Shown: piece by piece, positions 32,906 to 46,555 of the stretch | How the letters are laid out: each line of letters begins with the position of its first letter | Numbering within the stretch: the first letter of the stretch is position 1 | Origin: Collinsella sp. BG-O-102 | Lineage (GTDB): Bacteria > Actinomycetota > Coriobacteriia > Coriobacteriales > Coriobacteriaceae | DNA: 64,000 nt | Assembly: GCF_023656745.1 (NCBI RefSeq) | Contig: NZ_JAMOKO010000009.1 | Coordinates: 1 to 64,000 of the forward strand | Direction of reading: 5' to 3' | Translations under genes and position numbers: made by a program | Notes under the pieces: model-generated | Seen by the model: only the letters and a program-made list of their open reading frames with translations | What the model was told of the DNA's origin: nothing | Databases searched by the model: none

Positions 32906-32944
32906 AACCTGCCAAAAAGGGACAGGTTTATTTTGGTAGGTTTT
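32904..32944. repeat. Dispersed AGGTTTATTTTGG-type repeat overlapping the purF end
   Basis: AAAACCTGCCAAAA and TTTTGGTAGGTTTT form inverted ends around AGGGACAGG. It shares the core with the inverted copies at 43884 and 44028. A second small hairpin (GCGCGC/GCGCGC) lies at about 32970-32990. Confidence 0.7.
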
Positions 32945-43883: not shown

Positions 43884-44048
43884 AGGTTTATTTTGGCAGG
43901 TTTTATCGGGTAAAACGGCAAAGGGGCCAGCCTCGGGTTGCAATGAGGTCGGCCCCCTTTGGGGTGCTATGTGTGTATGGCGGTGCGCGGTTTATTGCGA
44001 TGCGGCCGCTGCGGCGTTTCCGCAGTTAAAACCTGCCAAAATAAACCT
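43884..44048. repeat. Pair of inverted 21-bp AGGTTTATTTTGG repeats between pth and the Nfn-like genes
   Basis: AGGTTTATTTTGGCAGGTTT starts at 43884, and its exact reverse complement occupies 44028-44048 (21 bases each). The 120 bases between hold the probable pth terminator. A third copy lies at 32904-32944. The rest of this roughly 370-base gap shows no gene. Confidence 0.8.
43920..43960 (-). terminator. Possible terminator downstream of pth
   Basis: AAAGGGG-CCTC and GAGG-CCCCCTTT pair with small bulges. On the minus strand the stem ends in CCCCTTTGCCG, so the T-tract is short. Confidence 0.4.
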
Positions 44049-44696: not shown

Positions 44697-44810
44697 GTTC
44701 ATCCTTTCGTTGATTTGTCGCCTGCTATGGTGAGCGACCCTGTTGCCGCTGTCAAATGGAGGGCAATTGAGGTTATTTGAGGGCGTTTGGACGGCCGTCG
44801 AAATCGAGGT

Positions 44811-45012
44811 GGACAGTTAGTTCAGATACGTATAAGTTCTGAGGACTCGAAGTGCTCAATTCAATGCCGATACGTTGTTTTGGAGCTTTAGTTAGTCCAT
44901 ATGACGCTGTTTTGAAGTCTACCCTGCCTTCAAATCGGGCGAATGGTATAGAGATAACTGCAAAACAGCCTAATTCAATGTGTCCATTTATACGTATTTG
45001 AACTAACTGTCC
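44811..45012. mobile_element. MITE-like element 1 (about 202 bp)
   Basis: Terminal inverted repeats of 24 bp: GGACAGTTAGTTCAGATACG continuing ATA at the left, and its reverse complement (one mismatch) at 44989-45012. The interior is AT-richer than the genome and has no gene. The same ends enclose a second element of almost equal length at 46339-46538. No clear target-site duplication is seen. Confidence 0.75.
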
Positions 45013-45046
45013 AGCCCTGCTCGACGGTGCACGGGTGATTCGCCGT

Positions 45047-46174
45047 TTAGACCGGCGCAAGGCCGATTCCGGCCCGCAGGGCGTTGAGCCAAGCGGCCTG
45101 ACGCTTGCGATAGCCCTTGATACGGTATCGGAATCGGACTCCCGCGAGTCGATGCATCGTTTGGGCGAAGGCTTCGAGTGCAACAAGGTCTTTCATTTGG
45201 TCGCGATTGATAACCAGGACGTGGATGCCCATTGCCTTGAGGCCATTATTTCGATTGCCATCGTGGATGCGAGCGTTTTGAAGCTCATGCCCAATTCCGT
45301 TGTATTCGTTGTCGACTCCGGCGGCCGGGCAATATAGGTCGCAGATGGCGTAAGGGATGCCGGAGGACATGTTGACCGCAAGAGTGTCGAAGTCGATTCG
45401 ATAGTTGAGTAGCAGGCCTCCCATGGGCAGGCTGCAACATCCGAATCCGCCAAAGCGCATGGGCGCTCCGAGAACGGCAAACATTAGGGATTCGGCTGGG
45501 GATGCAGATCCGGGTCGGGCGAGCTTGACTGCCGTGCGAAACGAGGTGTATGAGCTGCTTTTGGCAAGCTGTGCAACAGTCTCGAGATCTTCGATGGTCG
45601 TGGCGGGCTCGCATTTGTAGTGTGCCTGTTCGTAGCGGGTTTCGTTCTGCTGTTCGGTCGCCGACTGGTCGCCCCGGCAATCGAGGTCGTCCATCGCTTC
45701 GTAGTCATCGCCCTTGGGCCAGATGTCGTCATAGGCAATGGGGTATGTTGCCCCGGGAGGAAGGGAGTAGGTTCCGAGCAGCTCCATAAGGAGCATCAAG
45801 GTTTTGGCGACTGATTCATTTTTGGAACAAAGCATGGCTGTCATGGCAGGAGACGTTGCGTAGATGTCGGCCTCGACGTGCATAATTGCACCTTCAGGAA
45901 GAGGAGTGGAGAGAATATGCTGAAGAAGTCGCTTGTCGGGGCGCCTGTTGTCTTCGTTTGAAACGAGAAGATCGAGCAGTTCGGAATCATCTTCATTCCA
46001 GGCGTCGAGTATCGAAAGTGCGCCAAAGTCTATCGCGTCATTGTTGGGAATGCAGCCAGCCAAGGCCTGTGCTTGCTGTTCGCTATCAACGGAGTCCCAG
46101 GGTAGGGCAGAGTACGCCCGTCGTGCGCGACGAATTGCGCGGAGGGCGGAGAGATGTGAAATCACGGTCGTCAT
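45047..46174 (-). CDS. Hypothetical protein with Vsr/DUF559-like nuclease-fold C-terminus
   Basis: A 375-residue protein. It opens VISHLSALRAIRRARRAY, resembling a Coriobacteriia paralogue group with a start of the form ISHxSAL. SASPAESLMFAVLGAPMRFGG lies near residue 224. The C-terminal region fits a PD-(D/E)xK pattern: Asp279 in ICDLYC, Glu290-Tyr-Asn-Gly, then DGNRNNGLKAMGIHVLVI (Asp305 to about 322). It could be a nuclease or a toxin-antitoxin-like regulator; activity is not shown. No Shine-Dalgarno site precedes the ATG, so it may be leaderless. Two MITE-like elements bracket it, suggesting acquisition. Confidence 0.65.
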   Translation of the reverse strand: MTTVISHLSALRAIRRARRAYSALPWDSVDSEQQAQALAGCIPNNDAIDFGALSILDAWNEDDSELLDLLVSNEDNRRPDKRLLQHILSTPLPEGAIMHVEADIYATSPAMTAMLCSKNESVAKTLMLLMELLGTYSLPPGATYPIAYDDIWPKGDDYEAMDDLDCRGDQSATEQQNETRYEQAHYKCEPATTIEDLETVAQLAKSSSYTSFRTAVKLARPGSASPAESLMFAVLGAPMRFGGFGCCSLPMGGLLLNYRIDFDTLAVNMSSGIPYAICDLYCPAAGVDNEYNGIGHELQNARIHDGNRNNGLKAMGIHVLVINRDQMKDLVALEAFAQTMHRLAGVRFRYRIKGYRKRQAAWLNALRAGIGLAPV

Positions 46175-46338
46175 AGCTATAACGTACTAAGTTGGCGGCA
46201 GAATGCGACCGCCATACCGTTCTTTTCGCTCAGCGGGGCGCTGCGCGCCATGAACGGCTGGGTGTTATGAAATCGGTGGAATCGGTTGAGGGGATTGCAG
46301 GAAATTGAGCTCTGCCGCGAAGGTTGACGATAGCTACT

Positions 46339-46538
46339 GGACAGTTAGTTCAGATACGTATAAGACGGCGGGCGTTCGAGGCGTTTCTAAGGGCTTTCGA
46401 GGGCGATTTGAGGGTAAATATGCGGCGGTCGTACTCGAAAGCGATGAGCTTTGGGCAGTATGGCGTTCGCCGGGGAGCTCAGAAGGCTCAGAACGGCCTT
46501 TGGAGCTTTAAAAAAATACGTATCTGAACTAATTGTCC
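46339..46538. mobile_element. MITE-like element 2 (about 200 bp)
   Basis: The left end is identical to that of element 1 over 24 bases (GGACAGTTAGTTCAGATACG and ATA). The right end TACGTATCTGAACTAATTGT and CC is its inverted copy with one mismatch. The interior is diverged from element 1 apart from short shared words such as CGATTTGA. With element 1 it flanks the nuclease-like gene at 45047. The rest of the 46175-46625 gap holds only the prs terminator. Confidence 0.75.
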
Positions 46539-46555
46539 AGGGAAGGTTGTCGAGG

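Follow-up and report, generated by a model that had tools for sequence, protein, structure and literature searches.

What the gene and the repeats between pth and prs in Collinsella sp. BG-O-102 are to each other is the question raised by this locus. The initial annotation of the window (the whole stretch of DNA that was analysed, 64,000 nucleotides) described two elements of 202 and 200 bp with shared inverted ends and diverged interiors, and a single open reading frame between them. Both descriptions were confirmed. The arms of both elements are inverted, 25-26 nt long and 96% complementary, the interiors of elements 1 and 2 are unlike each other, and one open reading frame of 375 aa is located on the minus strand at 45047-46174. 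The neighbours are pth (Pfam E 3e-61) and prs (Pfam E 4e-47). The locus is composed of the following parts.

44810-46539, no strand: whole composite unit (3' element, nuclease-like gene, 5' element), from outer TGG...CCA to TGG...CCA
44811-45012, no strand: element 1, 202 bp, on the 3' side of the gene, its near end 34 bp past the stop codon; interior variable
44811-44834, plus strand: outer end of element 1, GGACAGTTAGTTCAGATACGTATA
44989-45012, minus strand: inner end of element 1, the 20-mer with one mismatch
45047-46174, minus strand: nuclease-like gene, 375 aa, dN/dS 0.11-0.26 against relatives
45137-45511, minus strand: predicted EDxHD/Vsr-like nuclease domain, residues 222-346, from the structure match and invariant residues
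45749-46174, minus strand: N-terminal domain, residues 1-142, weak match to AbiEi antitoxin 6y8q (Z 4.9)
46339-46538, no strand: element 2, 200 bp, on the 5' side of the gene, its near end 164 bp upstream of the start codon
46339-46362, plus strand: inner end of element 2
46515-46538, minus strand: outer end of element 2, the 20-mer with one mismatch

Elements of the window type have inverted ends of ~24 bp and a free interior of ~150 bp. The end sequence TGGACAGTTAGTTCAGATACGTAT, read directly, is non-palindromic and is inverted only as a pair of ends. The 20-mer GGACAGTTAGTTCAGATACG was found in four copies in the 64-kb window (at most 3 mismatches) and in none of 100 shuffles, and these four copies are the only ones in the 2.27-Mb genome. 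Three other origins were tried and rejected. For a structured RNA there was no Rfam match, and the interiors have no consistent folding (z +1.35 to -4.1, mostly above -2). For a phage, the 17-bp end was absent from IMG/VR contigs and the protein from phage records. For a plasmid, the sole match in the plasmid collection was a 900-kb C. aerofaciens record holding the paralogue. A different inverted repeat, with arms GGTTTATTTTGGCAGGTTTTA / TAAAACCTGCCAAAATAAACC, is located just downstream of pth at 43885-44047 of the window and also at 32925 (+); its 20-mer has ~30 copies in 1.9 Mb of the relative G002, mostly as single arms. G002 also has, at about a dozen sites (e.g. 1186824, 1280276 and 1555361), GC-rich inverted repeats with differing outer arms that end inward in AAGGTTT/AAAGTTTG, the inner distance being an identical 109 bp in four of them.

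The 375-aa protein has no above-threshold match in Pfam, NCBIfam or PADLOC. The label "nuclease-like" was first given on a weak Pfam match to DUF559 that did not reach the cut-off (E 0.16), and the predicted structure backs it. In an AlphaFold2 model built from a 24-sequence alignment (pTM 0.81), the best matches of residues 222-346 are I-Bth0305I, an EDxHD homing endonuclease, in its catalytic domain (3r3p; VIA Z 9.6, with an rmsd of 3.0 for 95 residues), and NGO0050, a DUF559-like protein (3hrl; VIA Z 9.1), followed by mitoribosome chains (Z 8.1-8.4). The only sequence match in the PDB was 3r3p again (E 0.32, profile positions 281-328), in the same nuclease region. E228, D279, E290, H296, D305, R308 and N309 do not vary among 24 diverse members of the family; of these, E228, D279, H296 and D305 would be the active site, judging from the EDxHD pattern. 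By its predicted fold and conserved E, D, H and D, the protein belongs to the EDxHD/DUF559 superfamily, and its gene is under purifying selection. The only structural match of the N-terminal domain at Z of at least 2 is the AbiEi antitoxin 6y8q, and this match is weak, with no counterpart in NCBIfam or PADLOC. No gene for an AbiEii partner was seen beside the nuclease-like gene, which is the single gene between pth and prs.

The same site was compared in 45 genomes of the genus. The gene is present at pth-prs with both elements in 13 of them, G000 included, all of the aerofaciens type. The sole locus of a close relative showing a single element is that of G013, where a contig end truncates the second element. 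In ten close relatives pth and prs are adjacent, with neither gene nor elements; the gene without elements was not seen among close relatives. Presence of the unit among close relatives is patchy: a two-locus tree requires 8 changes, and shuffled labels do equally well. That gene presence tracks the species tree was therefore rejected, as far as a two-locus tree of a possibly recombining group can tell. In more distant Collinsella and in Enorma, a homologue (43-56% identity) occupies the same interval; because this holds in C. tanakaei, C. massiliensis and Enorma, the gene is no recent arrival there. In C. massiliensis and Enorma it is flipped relative to pth and prs (L214, L215, L217 and L225), an inversion that could be mediated by the flanking inverted elements. 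Protein distances correlate with those of prs overall (r 0.91) but not when only distant pairs are compared (r 0.13), and the data therefore do not show that inheritance was strictly vertical over long distances.

Two allele types exist at pth-prs, that of the window and that of L210, L211 and L213. Between them identity is 97-98% in prs, 90-95% in the strip beside element 2, 54-57% in element 2, 84-86% in the gene, 60-62% in element 1, 83-90% in the strip beside element 1 and 93-100% in pth. The drop lies at the outer end of each element, where identity is 83-95% immediately beyond the end and 54-62% immediately within it; towards pth, the ~40 bp of flank next to element 1 are likewise somewhat diverged. 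This drop indicates that the element-gene-element stretch is one unit of exchange and, together with the absence of the whole block from ten close relatives, that the unit is transmitted jointly. A clean joint against the empty allele cannot be drawn because the whole intergenic region differs.

A block that is polymorphic and patchy among strains (the 8 changes being as in shuffles on the two-locus tree), whose divergent alleles are swapped at one site and whose protein has a homing endonuclease as its closest structure, may recall homing-type allele drive. By that account a free-standing EDxHD endonuclease would cut unit-less alleles, repair would copy the block, and the elements would protect or mark the unit. 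The allele that carries such a gene should then be without the target, yet here the gene stands between matching ends, which are also present at many other loci, and filled and empty alleles differ in the intergenic region outside the unit as well. We consider this account very improbable.

The association of gene and elements extends over the family. An inverted-repeat element of ~175-227 bp adjoins the gene on its 3' and/or 5' side at 38 of 41 named homologous loci in Collinsella and Enorma, and two of the other three loci are cut by contig ends near the gene. Their usual distance is 24-87 bp from the stop codon on the 3' side and/or ~140-166 bp from the start codon on the 5' side. The background rate of such inverted repeats in a relative is ~1 per 46 kb (41 in 1.9 Mb). 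The end sequences are gene-specific across 14 divergent genes: end identity is 94% among elements of one gene versus 44% between genes, and when the surroundings of homologues were scanned for inverted repeats, paralogues proved to have elements of their own, with different ends. A common layout is kept, an outermost TGG followed ~13 bp further in by CAGATATG-like bases. In one clade the change ATACG to ATTTG is present at all four ends of the unit, and in G023 also at a solo element in hypF, an insertion common to ACG-type genomes.

Nearly all members of the family are accompanied by elements that have an end sequence specific to the gene, and for this reason the gene is more likely to be the cognate nuclease of the elements than their passenger. 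Thus the suggestion of a composite unit stands insofar as the unit is inherited as one block, with sharp allele edges and with no close relative having the gene without the elements, and the suggestion that paired MITEs move a passenger gene does not. Some observations speak against the cognate reading: in G007 and G036 the solo elements are of the ACG type and the genes of the TTG type, and the correlation between protein and end similarity is weak (Mantel r 0.25, p 0.10; without close pairs 0.43, p 0.03). As a separate observation, G002 has at C1:676821-678425 (L298-L299 being the neighbouring DNA) a DUF559-type gene followed by two 164-bp elements with identical arms, CCGCCACGAAACCGGCCCATCTACTACGTTT, a motif found again at 1408695; this is probably a third gene/element family in one genome.

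The elements are also dispersed away from the genes. With the ends of the pth-prs gene of each genome, ~16 elements were found in G037 and ~15 in C. tanakaei, and C. massiliensis has 16 and 13 ends of its own genes; control matches were 0 in each case. E. burkinafasonensis and others likewise have dispersed copies with their own ends. Paralogue 2, which is encoded elsewhere in the genome of the window and is 33% identical to the window protein, has 9-23 ends per aerofaciens-type genome (control matches 0). G023 lacks paralogue 2 and has no such ends; G002 lacks it and still has the elements. Elements persist without the gene in G001, G002, G005, G006, G008 and G021, which speaks against the cognate reading. 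Homologous interiors were found at different loci of one genome. Solo elements of the window type are present at ligA/degP, at ROK/purE, near carB and inside hypF, where in G013 (L077:6662-6865), G014, G023 and G036 the element leaves the reading frame open and adds ~70 residues. No identical recent copies were seen, so that present-day activity is no more than possible. No clean target-site duplication was found at hypF, ligA/degP or other sites, filled and empty sites differing by more than a clean insertion; flanks at the compared empty sites are diverged or deleted, and some of the "empty" sites retain part of an end, much as a deletion would leave it. The empty ligA/degP sites (L193 and others) have a palindrome, GATCGCGCGATC or a closely similar sequence, which is missing from the filled sites.

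Inverted ends, a variable interior and dispersed copies are MITE-like, and phase dependence of short transposons is known from Tn5/IS50. The elements might accordingly be ordinary MITEs of an as yet unseen transposon inserting near these genes, with the nuclease gene a bystander or passenger. We regard this as improbable. The ends are gene-specific across the 14 divergent genes, elements are present at 13 of the 14 genes outside the aerofaciens groups, and paralogue 2 and the third paralogue in G002 each have their own element set. No transposase with these ends and no target duplication were seen: a full-length, transposase-bearing relative was not found in the 45 genomes of the genus, where paired ends stand ~180 bp apart (20-mer start to start).

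The length of the elements carries further information. Among elements with the same ends in one genome, the lengths are 173, 183, 193-194, 203 and 213-215 bp in G037 and 172-173, 183, 192-195 and 203-204 bp in C. tanakaei; they were read from coordinates, and no choice of anchor is involved because the ends are the same within a genome. The Enorma-type set has lengths of 146-147, 157-158, 167-168 and 176-179 bp. The combined period is 10.42 bp (sum nR2 41.5 versus a null maximum of 14.5 in 3000 simulations). The periodicity was first seen in paralogue 2, whose elements are only 188-190 or 199-200 bp long (44 distinct sequences in 10 unrelated interior groups), and in data with one length per family (n=17, p about 7e-7, some anchors being hand-set); the searches in G037, C. 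tanakaei and the Enorma-type set are thus an independent test. Because common descent makes some copies partly dependent on each other, the p-values for length are approximate. In one relative, inverted repeats of other kinds had no 10.4-bp period in raw span (R 0.08, p 0.8); raw span is a crude measure, and some of these other repeat families have one fixed inner length. Chance is unlikely to account for the period given the many unrelated interiors and genomes. Steps of ~10.4 bp suggest that the two ends face the same side of the helix and are bridged by one complex, and the natural reading is that both ends are gripped by one complex across a DNA loop.

Orthologous elements keep their length within 2 bp while their interiors fall to 54-62% identity; because length and ends are kept despite such divergence, phase seems to matter after insertion. 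This is expected if an AbiEi-like protein loops phased pairs of operators at its own gene and at other loci for architecture or regulation, the elements having spread mainly by recombination and the nuclease fold being vestigial or unused for mobility. Purely architectural AbiEi-like looping is the main rival to a mobile nuclease, and it agrees with AbiEi as the only, weak, structural match of the N-terminal domain, with an element 164 bp upstream of the start of the gene, and with the ends at the shared hypF insertion in G023, which changed like those of its gene pair. Against it, element positions vary between close relatives, one element lies in frame inside the coding gene hypF, homologous copies are present at different loci of one genome, and E228, D279, H296 and D305 are invariant in the 24 diverse members. 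We consider architectural looping rather unlikely.

The observations to be explained are the family-wide association, the gene-specific ends, the dispersed copies, the helical quantisation of length, the block-wise divergence and absence, and the selective constraint on the gene. In Collinsella and allied bacteria of the gut, this little-known gene family and its matched ~200-bp repeats point to a repeat-moving or repeat-binding system. We think it probable that the locus is a small self-contained unit, an EDxHD/Vsr-like endonuclease gene with a copy of its own cognate element on either side, the element being spread in trans. The protein, probably as a dimer or tetramer, would bind both inverted ends of one element at once, and the ~14-20 helical turns between them would have to loop in such a way that the two ends expose the same face. 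Cutting or nicking by the nuclease at the element ends would follow, and the ~200-bp elements would thereby spread in trans to other loci, while strains would gain, lose or exchange the element-gene-element block as a single allele. We infer that the protein binds these ends, is catalytic and moves the elements. We know of no EDxHD fold that serves as a transposase. It is possible, at somewhat below even confidence, that an EDxHD nuclease which synapses inverted ends across a phased loop and mobilises ~200-bp elements defines a new class of mobile repeats, with many end codes across the Coriobacteriaceae.

The closest analogue would be RAYT/REPIN, whose enzyme is unrelated. In RAYT/REPIN (the TnpA-REP "REPtron") the spacing of the ends is fixed and each gene has one class of repeat (PMC3116915, PMC8266576). 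As there, a single-copy nuclease-like gene stands beside its own short inverted-pair elements, with a distinct repeat class per gene, dispersed non-autonomous copies, a fixed inter-end distance and ends that co-vary with the gene. However, RAYTs are HUH/Y1 enzymes acting on single-stranded palindromes, whereas the Collinsella protein is predicted to be EDxHD/Vsr-like, its ends are not palindromes, and its elements are ~175-230 bp long, fall into length classes 10.4 bp apart and number ~1-16 copies. Because Pfam gave no match to an HUH/Y1 domain in the 375-aa protein, whose fold matches EDxHD nucleases, and because the ends are not palindromic, the system is not filed as RAYT. With insertion-sequence MITEs the elements share terminal inverted repeats, a non-coding interior and dispersal, but here the ends go with a nuclease gene that has a complete element on either side. 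The protein shares its predicted fold and conserved E, D, H and D with EDxHD homing endonucleases (I-Bth0305I, PMC3943268) and DUF559 proteins (NGO0050); unlike the homing endonucleases, its gene is not in an intron and has paired repeat elements and an extra N-terminal domain. That domain has a weak structural likeness to AbiEi antitoxins of type IV toxin-antitoxin systems, but no AbiEii partner lies between pth and prs and a nuclease domain is attached. A literature search confined to papers available without subscription found none tying DUF559, EDxHD or Collinsella to such elements.

To our knowledge, RAYT/REPIN is the main case in bacteria in which a domesticated nuclease co-evolves with a population of repeats of its own. 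If an unrelated enzyme followed the same genomic logic, it would testify independently to the repeated origin of such partnerships. The pairing of a nuclease with repeats is in itself a known logic; mobility by an EDxHD enzyme, if shown, would be a new class. Footprints of a looped protein-DNA complex at genome scale are rare; the quantised length of the elements is one, and it opens the mechanism to direct testing. The many gene/end pairs are a natural library of protein-DNA specificities.
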